Shown: piece after piece, positions 37,343 through 58,534 of the stretch
How positions within the stretch are numbered: position 1 is the first letter of the stretch
Layout of the letters: every line of letters begins with the position of its first letter
DNA from: Euzebya sp.
GTDB taxonomy: Bacteria; Actinomycetota; Nitriliruptoria; Euzebyales; Euzebyaceae
Direction: 5' to 3'
Assembly (NCBI RefSeq): GCF_964222135.1
Contig: NZ_CAXQBR010000109.1
Span: forward strand, 1-64,000
Length of the DNA stretch: 64,000 nucleotides
Position numbers and translations under genes: made by a program
Notes under the pieces: model-generated
The model's database searches: none
Seen by the model: the letters and a program-made list of their open reading frames with translations, nothing else
What the model was told of the DNA's origin: nothing

Positions 37343-37577
37343 CACGAATCGACTCCGGTCGCTCGGGCGGGGAGCACGGGGGGTCACCCCGTCCCGCACG
37401 AATCGACTCCGACCAGGCCGCGTGGTGGAGGCGGCAGTGCACATCTGTGCGCGAACACCCTGCTCAGGGCGATCTCGGCCCGGGATGCGGAGTCGATCGG
37501 TGGGGCGTCGGAGTCGATCCGTGGGTGGCGGGGGACCACGCCGGAGTCGATCCGTGGGACGGCGGAGTCGATCCGTG
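37343..37577. repeat. Six-copy array of the 15-mer CGGAGTCGATYCGTG
   Basis: The motif lies on the minus strand at 37343-37357 and 37397-37411 and on the plus strand at 37488-37502 (one mismatch), 37509-37523, 37542-37556 and 37563-37577. Steps are 54, 91, 21, 33 and 21 bases, mostly close to whole helical turns. It occupies the gap between two convergent genes, so it is not an ordinary promoter. The spacing rules out CRISPR. It is a candidate protein-binding array or a palindromic-repeat family. Confidence 0.85.
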
Positions 37578-37597
37578 CCCAGAACCCGGCGGGACCC

Positions 37598-47038: not shown

Positions 47039-47670
47039 GCACCCTGCCCGACCTGCAGGATGCGGTTCGACGCATACACGGCGTCGCCTCGGCATTCATC
47101 CGCTGGCCCGACCCCGAGGGTCCCGCGATGCTGCGGGTGGAGTTCACGGACGGGGCCGACACCCAGCGCGTCGGCGAGGAGGTCGTCCGCACGCTGGTCG
47201 ACGTCGGGCAGGTCGACCTGGCCACCCTGCAGGTCGGACGGGGCGCCGAGGAGGTCCAGCCGGCCCGACCCGTGTTCACCGGCATGGTCCTCGACCGGGT
47301 CGACGACGAGCTCGAGGTCGAGGTGACGCTCGAGTACCACGCCGCCACGTTCAGGGGGACCGCGCGGGGAGACGTCACGCAGGTCGACGAGCTCGCCCTG
47401 GTCGCGAGCGCCGCAGTCGACGCGGTCATGGGCATCCGCCCCGACGGACACCACCTCCGCACCGTCCAGCGCCACCACGTCCAGGGCGCCAGCGACGTCG
47501 TCACCGTGCTGCTGGACCACGACGCCTCGTGGCAGCCGTCCCTCGTCGGCACCGCGCTGGTGGAGCGCGACGCCCGCGAGGCCACCGTCCGCGCCACCCT
47601 CGACGCCCTCAACCGGGTGTGGACCTTCGCCGACCCCTCCCCCGCGAGCAACCCCGCCCTCATCGGCTAG
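47035..47670 (+). CDS. Conserved-looking hypothetical protein
   Basis: 211 residues, cytoplasmic, no signal or membrane segment. Two similar-sized alpha/beta halves are suggested: about 1-75 (VASAFIRWPDPEGPAMLRVE, TQRVGEEVVRTLVDVGQVD) and about 85-205 (DDELEVEVTLEYHAATFRG, SLVGTALVERDAREATVRAT, LDALNRVWTF). The second half recalls small regulatory ACT-like domains but I cannot assign a family. Coupled by ATGA to the Arg-rich small gene. Its stop lies in CATCGGCTAGCCGC, a 14-base string found again in both hairpin repeats downstream. Confidence 0.65.
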   Translation: MSTLPDLQDAVRRIHGVASAFIRWPDPEGPAMLRVEFTDGADTQRVGEEVVRTLVDVGQVDLATLQVGRGAEEVQPARPVFTGMVLDRVDDELEVEVTLEYHAATFRGTARGDVTQVDELALVASAAVDAVMGIRPDGHHLRTVQRHHVQGASDVVTVLLDHDASWQPSLVGTALVERDAREATVRATLDALNRVWTFADPSPASNPALIG

Positions 47671-47679
47671 CCGCAGCTC

Positions 47680-47816
47680 AGGGCCTGGTGTGGAGATGTC
47701 CTCCATCGGCTAGCCGCCGATGTAGGACATCTCACCGGACGCGATGGCGCCGGTGACACCTGGACGACGCGGCTCCGCCGCGGCCGAGGGCCTGGTGTGG
47801 AGATGTCCTCCATCGG

Positions 47817-47840
<24 letters not shown>
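47680..47840. repeat. Duplicated 54-bp hairpin at the moaA 3' end
   Basis: An identical 54-base block occurs at 47680-47733 and 47787-47840. Each contains a 17-bp inverted repeat with one mismatch: GAGATGTCCT...AGGACATCTC (10 bp) enclosing CATCGGC/GCCGATG (7 bp), loop of five (hairpins 47693-47733 and 47800-47840). The second copy encodes the last codons and stop of moaA. A part of it, CATCGGCTAGCCGC, also covers the stop of the plus-strand gene (47661-47674). It probably terminates transcription from both sides. Confidence 0.85.
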
Positions 47841-55363: not shown

Positions 55364-56965
55364 CTACTCGTCGCTGCTCTCGGGCTCCTCGGCCTCGGCG
55401 GTCTCGGCGTCGTCGGTCTCGGCGTCCGGGGTCGCAGCCTCGTCGGTAGCGGCCTCGGTGCTCCCCTCCTCCTCGGCCGGCTCGTCCGCGGCCGCCTCGG
55501 TGGTCTCCTCCGCGACGGGCTCCTCGGAGACGTCCTCGGAGTCGGCCTCCTCGTCCTCGACGTCGGCGTCCTCGGCCGCCGCGGCCGCGGCCTGGGCCTG
55601 GACGCGGGCGATGACGTCCTGGGCGGACAGGCCGCCGGACTCACCGGACTCCTCGTCCTCCGCCTCCTCGGCGGCGCGGGCCTGCTGCGAGCGCTGCATG
55701 GCCTGGGCCAATGCGGCACCCATCGCCGAGCCGCCGTCGCCGCCGGTGTCCCCACCACGGCTGGAGGTCGGGGCCTCCGCGGCGTAGGTCGGGGCCTCGT
55801 CGATCTCGGGCGCCTCGCCGTAGCCGGCCTTGACGGCCTGCTTCAGCGACAGCGAGATCCGGCGGCGGACGTCGTCGATGTCGATGATCTTGACGGTCAG
55901 GCGGTCGTTGACCTTGACGACCTGCTCGGGCTGCTCGACGTGGGCGTCGGCCAGCTCGGAGATGTGGATCAGGCCCTCGATGCCGTCCTCGACCTTCACG
56001 AAGGCGCCGAAGGGGACCAGCTTGGTGACGTTGCCCTCGACGAACTCGCCCACGTAGTGCTGGCGGGCGAACTGCTGCCACGGGTCTTCCTGGGTCGCCT
56101 TGAGCGACAGCGACACGCGCTCGCGCTCGAGGTCCACGTCGAGCACCTCGACCTCGACCTCCTGGCCCAGCTCGACGACCTCACCGGGGTGGTCGACGTG
56201 CTTCCAGGACAGCTCGGAGACGTGCACGAGCCCGTCCACGCCGCCCAGGTCGACGAACGCGCCGAAGTTGACGCAGGAGGAGACGGTGCCCTTGCGGATC
56301 TCGCCCTTCTGCAGGGTCTCGAGGAACTCCCGGCGGAACTCGCTCTGGGTCTCCTCGAGGAACTTGCGGCGGCTCAGGACCACGTTGTTGCGGTTCTTGT
56401 CGAGCTCGATGACCTTGCACTCGAGCTCCTGGCCCACGTAGGGGTGCAGGTCGCGGACGCGCCGCATCTCGACCAGCGACGCGGGCAGGAAGCCGCGGAG
56501 GCCGATGTCGAGGATGAGGCCGCCCTTGACGACCTCGATGACCGTGCCGGTGACCGTGGAGTCCCGCTCGTGGATCTCCTCGATCTTGCCCCAGGCGCGC
56601 TCGTACTGGGCGCGCTTCTTCGAGAGGACCAGCCGACCGTCCTTGTCCTCCGTCTGGAGGACGAGGGCCTCGATCACATCGCCCACGGCGACGACCTCGT
56701 TGGGGTCGACGTCGTGCTTGATGGAGAGCTCGCGGCTGGGGATGACCCCCTCGGACTTGAAGCCGATGTCGAGGAGGACCTCCTCGGGATCGACCTTGAC
56801 GACGACCCCCTCCACGATGTCACCGTCGTCGAAGTCCTTGACGGTGGCCTCGAGTGCGGCGAGGAAGGCTTCCTCGGTGCCGAACTCCTCGAGGAGGATG
56901 GCGGCTCCCCGCTCCCGCTCCTCGTCAGGGGCGGTGGCCAGGATGTGGGTCTGCTCGTCGGTCAT
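55364..56965 (-). CDS. rpsA: 30S ribosomal protein S1
   Basis: 533 residues from the ATG at 56965 (MTDEQTHILATAP); the longer frame is unsupported. Four S1 RNA-binding domains at about 47-115, 132-198, 217-285 and 302-372 (DIVEGVVVKVDPEEVLLDI, KGTVSSCVNFGAFVDLGGVD, GNVTKLVPFGAFVKVEDGIE). An acidic Ala/Glu/Asp-rich tail of about 160 residues follows, longer than is usual. S1 helps bind mRNA to the ribosome. Upstream lies the 12-bp palindrome array; a small hairpin CCTGTC/GACAGG at 57005-57021 is in the leader. Confidence 0.96.
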   Translation of the reverse strand: MTDEQTHILATAPDEERERGAAILLEEFGTEEAFLAALEATVKDFDDGDIVEGVVVKVDPEEVLLDIGFKSEGVIPSRELSIKHDVDPNEVVAVGDVIEALVLQTEDKDGRLVLSKKRAQYERAWGKIEEIHERDSTVTGTVIEVVKGGLILDIGLRGFLPASLVEMRRVRDLHPYVGQELECKVIELDKNRNNVVLSRRKFLEETQSEFRREFLETLQKGEIRKGTVSSCVNFGAFVDLGGVDGLVHVSELSWKHVDHPGEVVELGQEVEVEVLDVDLERERVSLSLKATQEDPWQQFARQHYVGEFVEGNVTKLVPFGAFVKVEDGIEGLIHISELADAHVEQPEQVVKVNDRLTVKIIDIDDVRRRISLSLKQAVKAGYGEAPEIDEAPTYAAEAPTSSRGGDTGGDGGSAMGAALAQAMQRSQQARAAEEAEDEESGESGGLSAQDVIARVQAQAAAAAAEDADVEDEEADSEDVSEEPVAEETTEAAADEPAEEEGSTEAATDEAATPDAETDDAETAEAEEPESSDE

Positions 56966-57220
56966 GTAGGCGGTCCGTTCAAGGGGTTGGCAGTGTCGCA
57001 GGGACCTGTCACGAGGGACAGGGTGTGGATCTGATCCTGTTGGTCGCCACCGTGCGGGGAGGCCCGGCGGCGGGTGTGCGCGCCCGACTGGGACGGCGAG
57101 CAGCACAGAAAGCCCCCGGAGGGGCGGAGGACTCAGTCTGCCACGGCGCGTCGGGGCACGCCACCGCCAGTCCAGCCGTCCGCGCGGGGGCGTCCGACGC
57201 GGCGGACGGCCGTGGACCGG
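56966..57220. other. rpsA leader and upstream region
   Basis: The 393-bp gap between metZ and rpsA holds a small stem-loop at 57005-57021, the palindrome array at 57221-57343 and no supported gene. No close match to promoter consensus was found; the rpsA leader must lie here. Confidence 0.5.
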
Positions 57221-57343
57221 GACTCAGATCTGAGCCGCAGGGCCGCCGGCGGGGCGAACTCTCAGATCTGTGATCGCGGTCGCGCGCACCGGGACCCAGA
57301 TCTGAGCCGCACCTGCGCCGGCGGAGCTGAACCTCAGATCTGA
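57221..57343. repeat. Four-copy array of the palindrome CTCAGATCTGAG
   Basis: The 12-bp palindrome occurs at 57221-57232 (perfect), 57260-57271 (ends GTG), 57294-57305 (starts CCC) and 57332-57343 (perfect). Steps are 39, 34 and 38 bases. Copies 1-2 and 3-4 form two similar units of about 48 bp (CAGATCTGAGCCGCA ... GCCGGCGG ... CTCAGATCTG), with a period of 73. It starts 256 bases upstream of the rpsA start. No known element fits; it could be an operator or a mobile palindromic repeat. Confidence 0.85.
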
Positions 57344-57358
57344 GATGACGAGCGGCGC

Positions 57359-58534
57359 TCAGGCGGACAACGCCCGGGCGAGGTCCTCGCGCAGGTCCTC
57401 GACGTCCTCCAACCCGACCGACAGCCGGATCACCCCGTCGGTGATGCCGACGGCCGCCCGCCCCTCCGGGCCGATGCGGTGGTGCGTCGTCGTCGCCGGG
57501 TGGCAGGCCAGGGACTTCGCGTCGGCGAAGTTGTTCGAGATGTCCACGACGTCGAGGGCGTCGAGGACCGCGAACGCCCGGTCGGTCCCGCCCTCCACCT
57601 CGAACGTCACCACGGTCCCGCCGCCGGTCATCTGCCGCCGGGCCAGGTCGTGCTGGGGGTGGGACGCCAGCCACGGGTGGCGCACCCACGTGACCGCCGG
57701 CTGCGACTCGAGCCAGCCGGCCAGATCGAGGGCGGTGGCGGCCATCCGCTCGACCCGCAACCGCAGGGTCTCGAGGCCCTTCAGCACCACCCAGGCGTTG
57801 AACGGGCTGAGGACCGGGCCGGTGTGGCGCATCAGCGGTTGGACCTCGCCGTCGATGAACGCCGCCGACCCGAGGATCACCCCGCCGAGGGTCCGTCCCT
57901 GGCCGTCCATGTGCTTGGTGGTCGAGTAGACGACGACGTCGGCGCCCAGGTCGAGGGGCCGTTGGAACACCGGGGAGGCGAAGATGTTGTCCACGATCAC
58001 GCGGGCGCCCACCGCGTGGGCGAGCTCGCAGACCGCGGCGATGTCGACGAGCTCCTGCATGGGGTTCGAGGGGCTCTCGAAGAACACCGCTGCCGCCGGT
58101 GTCGACAGGGCCGACTCCCACTGGCCCAGGTCGTCGCCGTCGACGAAGTCGGTCGTGACGCCGTAGCGGGGCAGGATCTCGTCGAGGACGACGGTGCAGG
58201 ACCCGAAGAGGCTCCGGGCCGCCACCACCCGGTCCCCCGCCCGCACCGACGCGAGCAGGGCGTAGAACACCGCGGCCATCCCGCTCGCCGTCGTCCACGC
58301 GGCCTCGGCGCCCTCGAGCTGGCGCACCCGCTCGGTCAGCATCGCGACGGTCGGGTTGGACACGCGGCTGTAGCGGTGGCGCTCGATGTCACCGGCGAAC
58401 GCGGCCGCCGCCTCCGCGGCCGTGGCGTACACGTACCCGGAGTTCAGGAACAGCGCCTCGGAGGTCTCGTCGAACGCCGAGCGCGCCAGTCCGCCGCGGA
58501 CCGCGGCGGTGTCGGGGCGCCAGTCGCCGGCCAC
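57359..58534 (-). CDS. metZ: O-succinylhomoserine sulfhydrylase
   Basis: 391 residues of the Cys/Met-metabolism PLP family (PF01053): SRVSNPTVAMLTERVRQLEG, TASGMAAVFYALLA, PLP-lysine in STTKHMDGQGRTLGGVILG. The KHMDGQGR string is typical of MetZ, which makes homocysteine from O-succinylhomoserine and sulfide; related gamma-lyases are possible. It is directly downstream (6 bases) of a rhodanese-like gene, the common MetZ pairing that hands over sulfur. Confidence 0.88.
   Translation of the reverse strand: MAGDWRPDTAAVRGGLARSAFDETSEALFLNSGYVYATAAEAAAAFAGDIERHRYSRVSNPTVAMLTERVRQLEGAEAAWTTASGMAAVFYALLASVRAGDRVVAARSLFGSCTVVLDEILPRYGVTTDFVDGDDLGQWESALSTPAAAVFFESPSNPMQELVDIAAVCELAHAVGARVIVDNIFASPVFQRPLDLGADVVVYSTTKHMDGQGRTLGGVILGSAAFIDGEVQPLMRHTGPVLSPFNAWVVLKGLETLRLRVERMAATALDLAGWLESQPAVTWVRHPWLASHPQHDLARRQMTGGGTVVTFEVEGGTDRAFAVLDALDVVDISNNFADAKSLACHPATTTHHRIGPEGRAAVGITDGVIRLSVGLEDVEDLREDLARALSA

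Follow-up and report, generated by a model that had tools for sequence, protein, structure and literature searches.

The region between a metZ-like gene and rpsA in Euzebya sp. (assembly GCF_964222135.1) raises the question of what four regularly spaced 12-bp palindromes are, and what they are there for. The stretch of DNA analysed, referred to as the window in the rest of the text, comprises positions 1 to 64,000 of contig NZ_CAXQBR010000109.1 (64,000 nucleotides); its source genome is referred to as G000. A preliminary description of the window had placed four palindromes in two similar units at 57221-57343, with a period of 73 bp. A pattern scan confirmed the palindromes and the two units, but moved the span to 57223-57344 and the period to 72 bp.

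A tandem dimer of a 72-bp unit follows metZ

Palindromes P1 (CTCAGATCTGAG, 57223..57234) and P4 (CTCAGATCTGAG, 57333..57344) are exact copies, and P2 (CTCAGATCTGTG, 57261..57272) and P3 (CCCAGATCTGAG, 57295..57306) carry one mismatch each (all four unstranded); the successive spacings are 38, 34 and 38 bp. Scanning the window with two mismatches allowed recovered these four palindromes only, and shuffled sequences gave 2.3 scattered matches on average; it is therefore the clustering of the palindromes, not their count, that is unusual within the window.

The complete element (57212..57355, minus strand; alignment A1, model R1) consists of a quasi-palindromic unit of 72 bp present twice in tandem, the unit length following from conservation that reaches ~10 bp past the outer palindromes. 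The two units occupy 57212-57283 and 57284-57355, with a polarity that was taken from unit comparison and is weak for the second unit. Alignment A1 holds 26 dimers in 144 gap-free columns, and model R1 matches the window element at 57216-57353 with 96 bits. Each unit opens and closes with a boundary motif; inside these stand the two palindromes, separated by a spacer of 26 bp that has a quasi-palindromic centre. The conserved quasi-palindromic centres lie midway between P1 and P2 (57240..57255, profile columns 18-33) and between P3 and P4 (57312..57327, profile columns 90-105), and the linker between the units (57273..57294) contains boundary motif R (GGTCG..CGACC-like), which the conservation table also places at the outer ends of the dimer; centres and linker are likewise unstranded.

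The metZ-like gene (57359-58534, minus strand) codes for a Cys/Met metabolism PLP enzyme (Pfam PF01053, E = 1.7e-125), and the next gene downstream is rpsA (55364..56965, minus strand), coding for ribosomal protein S1 (S1 domains PF00575, E = 4.1e-79; start from a codon-based gene finder). The element starts 14 bp past the metZ stop and 257 bp ahead of the rpsA ATG (56965). A terminator-like stem with a T-rich tail (57112..57130, minus strand; two overlapping sites compared to a mean of 0.1 in shuffled sequences) lies between the element and rpsA. Since the order along transcription is thus metZ stop, element, terminator-like stem and rpsA, the element belongs to the 3′ region of metZ and not to the rpsA promoter, and it is not an rpsA signal.

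The element is one copy of a dispersed repeat

A genome-wide count, proposed as a check in the preliminary description, showed that the unit is not single. G000 (5.06 Mb, a draft assembly of 111 contigs) contains 39 exact copies of the 12-mer compared to none of the reversed control pattern, and a model built from 26 dimers gave 73 matches, on both strands at most loci. These define 36 loci, 28 with dimers and 8 with monomers or partial copies. The repeat is non-coding, intergenic and dispersed, and the window feature is one of its copies. The 26 dimers had been chosen by a fixed 38/34/38 scan, and the unbiased evidence on spacing comes from separate pair searches in G000, three congeners (G001, G002 and G003) and a genome of an unrelated family (G132). 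Of the 49 pairs that G000 yielded with spacings of 28-48 bp allowed, 48 are spaced at exactly 38 or 34 bp, and the remaining pair is at 45 bp.

Palindrome cores are almost invariant among the G000 copies while spacers diverge. The core GATC is intact in nearly all of 61 units examined, and the spacers of different loci agree at only ~14 of 26 positions, those of the paired units at a single locus at 19 of 26. From this divergence of copies within the genome it follows that the spread was not recent. The GATC centre had also been pointed out as common to an array near 37.3 kb; this looks incidental, and the family of a sister species uses a different centre. That array, an intergenic set of CGGAGTCGATC and CGAATCGACTCC repeats in inverted orientation (window 37345-37580), has one similar site, in L069 (G000 C45:82000-88000), and is possibly another repeat family of G000. 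Elsewhere in the window, 47663-47830 contains two direct copies of a repeat of ~50 bp that has GGCTAGCCG palindromes as well as ATGTAGGACATCTC arms.

The placement of the elements was read relative to genes called with a codon-based gene finder. Of 67 elements classified across the four genus genomes, none lies between divergent genes, compared to 104 of the 342 intergenic gaps that measure 60 bp or more (Fisher, P = 6e-10); five elements had been excluded before this count, three under a predicted gene and two at contig ends. Many elements begin less than 50 bp from a stop codon. In G132, 9 of 10 elements are not between divergent genes, and the exception faces the start of the nuclease gene described below.

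Close pairs of elements enclose a gene for a predicted nuclease

Exactly one pair of elements less than 5 kb apart is present in each of G000, G001 and G002, and each pair encloses a single gene coding for a protein of 293-296 aa (L077:4125-5009 in G000, contig C73; L237:3264-4154 in G001; L262:3082-3963 in G002). The three enclosed proteins are homologous (31-35% identity), and none of the other genes adjoining these elements match each other. In AbiE type IV toxin-antitoxin systems, a DUF1814 toxin gene is the neighbour; by eye, the neighbours of the C73 gene resemble an oxidoreductase and an MMPL transporter.

PADLOC AbiEi profiles match all three enclosed proteins (E = 3e-13, 1.7e-12 and 2.7e-07). 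The DUF559 profile matches two of them (4.6e-11 and 4.5e-12) and gives 0.056 for the G000 protein, under the Pfam cut-off; the PF04480 genome search also missed the latter. A structure of the G000 protein was predicted with a pLDDT of 91.8. In this model, residues 1-184 match AbiEi 6y8q (Z = 12.2) and Rv2827c (Z = 9.5), and residues 188-291 match I-Bth0305I (Z = 11.7), Vsr (Z = 10.8) and the endonuclease-like protein 3hrl. Foldseek alone returned 3r3p at an E value of 0.02 and 3hrl at 0.33, and the assignment of a nuclease fold is based on the structural Z scores and the profiles, not on the Foldseek ranking. Residues D223, E234 and H240 are invariant in 25 proteins, and D236 and D249 are nearly so; we infer that the five would be the active-site residues of the EDxHD motif. 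The C73 protein of ~294 aa is thus predicted, from profiles and the modelled structure, to combine an AbiEi-type DNA-binding region with a Vsr/EDxHD (DUF559) nuclease domain. One nuclease had no match in plasmid records, and one family member had none in 50,697 phage records.

The three genomes also share a second nuclease locus with diverged flanking tandem palindromes, the GATC cores of which are 38 bp apart in each genome when counted by eye. This locus (L274, G000 C13:17638-18498; L272, G001 C4; L267, G002 C1:3084508) apparently occupies a common place, with the same downstream gene. A truncated relative of the G001 C4 nuclease, 85% identical over residues 115-295 only, is found in G003 (L270, C1:2673683).

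Flanking repeats recur across the genus and the phylum

The four genus genomes contain 18 DUF559 matches. Matching repeats are present on both sides at 10 of these 18 loci (score of at least 57), compared to 14 of 2000 cross-locus control pairs, which include related loci. Clear paired palindromes stand at seven of the ten positive loci, and the other three (L269, L280 and L282) have short GC-rich or simple repeats instead.

Of 197 genomes sampled across the phylum, 63 have matches to AbiEi/DUF559 proteins, in some cases at least ten in one genome. Of 30 phylum loci returned, 29 were usable (L288 was dropped for too little upstream DNA), and the strand was set as the one with fewest stops, or plus where the strands tied; L308 contains a single internal stop. 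At 13 of the 29, the two flanks have matching repeats (score of at least 50), compared to none of 2000 control pairs; two of the 13 are genus loci that were already known. Eight of the 18 genus loci and 16 of the 29 phylum loci are without flank repeats at these thresholds. Tandem periods in the phylum nuclease flanks include 62 and 72 bp, and a period of 82 bp occurs in G001.

In G132, the flank repeats of the nuclease gene predicted a dispersed family: 14 pairs were found, all at 38 or 34 bp, while the same pattern gave no pair in six other genomes. Five G132 arrays have four sites, four of them spaced 38/34/38, and on the contig of the nuclease gene, the sole pair less than 5 kb apart has that gene between its members. 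A prediction of this kind, from nuclease flanks, was made once.

Sister species share the architecture but not the palindrome

The G000 palindrome pattern was found in none of 60 relatives, and model R1 gave weak matches alone in 40 relatives (best E = 0.0026). A species collection also contained no G000 pattern; the G001-type triple pattern likewise gave none there, though G001 and G003 hold it, so that these species are probably absent from that collection or left out of it. The six stretches returned from IMG/VR have one pair each, and four of the stretches are near-identical, a chance-like result.

A palindrome-blind look at 800 kb revealed families in the three congeners. In G002, a CGCATGCG-centred palindrome forms 15 pairs, all at 39 bp. 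An ACRATYGT-type palindrome is common to G001 and G003, where the same pattern finds 39 and 11 pairs, respectively; the spacing is 38 or 44 bp in 38 of the 39 G001 pairs (the odd pair is at 36 bp) and in all 11 G003 pairs, and the elements comprise 38/44/38 dimers, a number of monomers and a single longer array. The inter-unit spacings of 34 and 44 bp (45 bp in one G000 locus) differ by about one helical turn. With G132, the same architecture is present in four further genomes, two of them assembled in 2 and 10 contigs. The palindrome sequence differs completely between sister species.

Four element sites are common to G001 and G003, accounting for four of five G003 copies, and one of them holds a dimer in G001 and a monomer in G003 (L244/L250). 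At the G001 C6 site, G003 is without the element and ~40 bp on each side, and the flanks are 86-91% identical. No target-site duplication is evident at this single filled/empty site, where the extra stretch is wider than the element and the difference may be a gain or a loss. No intact copy of the G001 C5 nuclease was detected among the four DUF559 matches in G003. This result and the lower number of pairs in G003 than in G001 are what is expected if upkeep of the repeats depends on the enzyme, in what is a single comparison.

A different tandem repeat (L244:3150-3361, G001 C20), which contains GTGCTGGCGTTGCGGTCCAG, adjoins the L244 element; most of it is missing from the corresponding site in G003. 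TGACGTCA arrays in G001 and G003 were considered as a repeat family and rejected, the only site being one common to both genomes; this array, conserved in both species (L211, G003 C1:4033551; L214, G001 C25:1283), is likely an ordinary regulatory region.

Discussion

The association between the repeats and the nuclease genes is well supported. We favour the reading, with a probability of about 0.7, that the window element belongs to a dispersed repeat with a cognate AbiEi-nuclease, in a system resembling REP/RAYT but built on an unrelated enzyme. How the repeats are mobilised and what the enzyme does to them we infer as follows. A dimer of the enzyme would bind the two palindromes of one unit through its winged-helix domains, which would set its nuclease domains over the unit centre, where they would act. 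Cutting and repair could then copy the repeats, expand them to one, two or three units and maintain them, as is thought for RAYTs and REPINs, and copies would persist where they are least harmful, after gene ends.

Other explanations were weighed against this one. Operators for a repressor of metZ and rpsA, proposed in the preliminary description, would fit palindromic sites of a dimer-type protein upstream of rpsA, but the 36 loci lie at 3′ ends beside many unrelated genes, the terminator-like stem precedes rpsA, and metZ and rpsA are neighbours in G004 without any element; we give this idea almost no credence. The same description had alternatively suggested stem-loop mobile repeats, of which the dispersed repeat came close to what was found and the stem-loop did not. 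A hairpin working in the 3′ UTR, as an RNA element or as an intrinsic terminator, would agree with the position after stop codons and with the good folding of single element sequences (z of −5.95 to −1.41 in six folds). However, hairpin covariation is absent in 61 units, where mirror positions pair no more than expected and mostly less, which argues for a double-stranded protein site; elements show no consistent orientation relative to transcription, Rfam returned no family near its threshold, and the sole terminator-like stem lies outside the element. A hairpin role is accordingly very improbable. Short dispersed repeats are often MITEs, and the assembly of G000 is a draft in 111 contigs; yet chance, an artefact of the assembly or an ordinary MITE whose transposase went undetected is scarcely credible given the same architecture in four further genomes, including the two with few contigs, and a flanked gene that codes for a predicted nuclease rather than a transposase.

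A less distant alternative, which we still regard as unlikely, is that the elements are domesticated sites: the AbiEi-nuclease or another protein would use them as fixed genome-wide binding sites, in insulation, 3′-end processing or nucleoid organisation, and the flanked gene would be autoregulated by its two copies. The almost invariant palindrome cores amid diverging spacers, the rigid helical spacing and the 3′-end placement are all in line with such sites, and a stable host function would also agree with the fact that four of the five copies in G003 occupy sites common to G001. Moreover, AbiEi and Rv2827c are described as autoregulating via tandem inverted repeats (PMC7319586). Against fixed sites stand the complete change of palindrome between sister species, the differences in presence and unit number at common sites, and the conservation of the predicted nuclease active-site residues.

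The favoured reading, a repeat with its own nuclease, has partial precedents. RAYTs are HUH tyrosine (Y1) transposases that act on single strands. RAYT genes are flanked by their own REPs, of which doublets are the usual unit as set out in PMC3116915; here, too, short palindromic repeats are dispersed in intergenic DNA, and an enzyme gene has copies of its repeat on either side. In contrast, the enzyme is AbiEi plus Vsr/EDxHD by profile and fold, the spacing is exact to the base, and the palindromes show no hairpin covariation. REPs are also characterised by a GTAG or CGTC tag at one palindrome end (PMC3733652), and no tetranucleotide of this type is conserved beside the palindromes in the 26 aligned copies.

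The type IV antitoxins AbiEi and Rv2827c share the fold of residues 1-184. Rv2827c binds four 23-bp inverted repeats in a promoter region of ~131 bp, where an additional 10 bp of spacing may, as the authors propose, make room for its larger C-terminal domain (PMC7319586). Their sites are in their own promoter, whereas here copies, presumably bound, flank the gene and occur at some 34 further loci, and the protein has a nuclease domain in addition. I-Bth0305I and Vsr have the same catalytic-domain fold, and the EDxHD enzyme of PMC3943268, the source of the motif name, dimerises on a target of nearly 60 bp, which resembles one repeat unit in length. The presumed targets here are dispersed repeats instead, with no intron or cognate empty allele known.

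A wider proposal stands at even odds in our view: AbiEi-EDxHD (DUF559) nucleases would form a second, independently evolved class of repeat-maintaining enzymes, the counterpart of RAYTs in Actinomycetota, with palindromic families specific to each paralogue, a dimer that reads palindromes 38 bp apart and cuts the centre, and fast coevolution of enzyme and palindrome. Coevolution at such a pace would explain why sister species share no palindrome. A Caulobacter DUF559 protein has been linked to cytosine methylation in PMC12907096. Among open-licence full texts, we found no description of a link between DUF559/AbiEi nucleases and palindromic repeats. To our knowledge, AbiEi/DUF559 proteins have no known role. 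If linked to dispersed palindromic repeats, this large family of unknowns would acquire a function, and the wider proposal, if true, would explain the many DUF559 paralogues of the phylum to which no function is assigned. The link is open to direct test, as palindrome families can be predicted from nuclease flanks. It would also mean that REP-like systems have more than one origin, each with an enzyme unrelated to the other, and would make available a natural collection of sequence-specific two-site nucleases, the targets of which are legible in the genome sequence.
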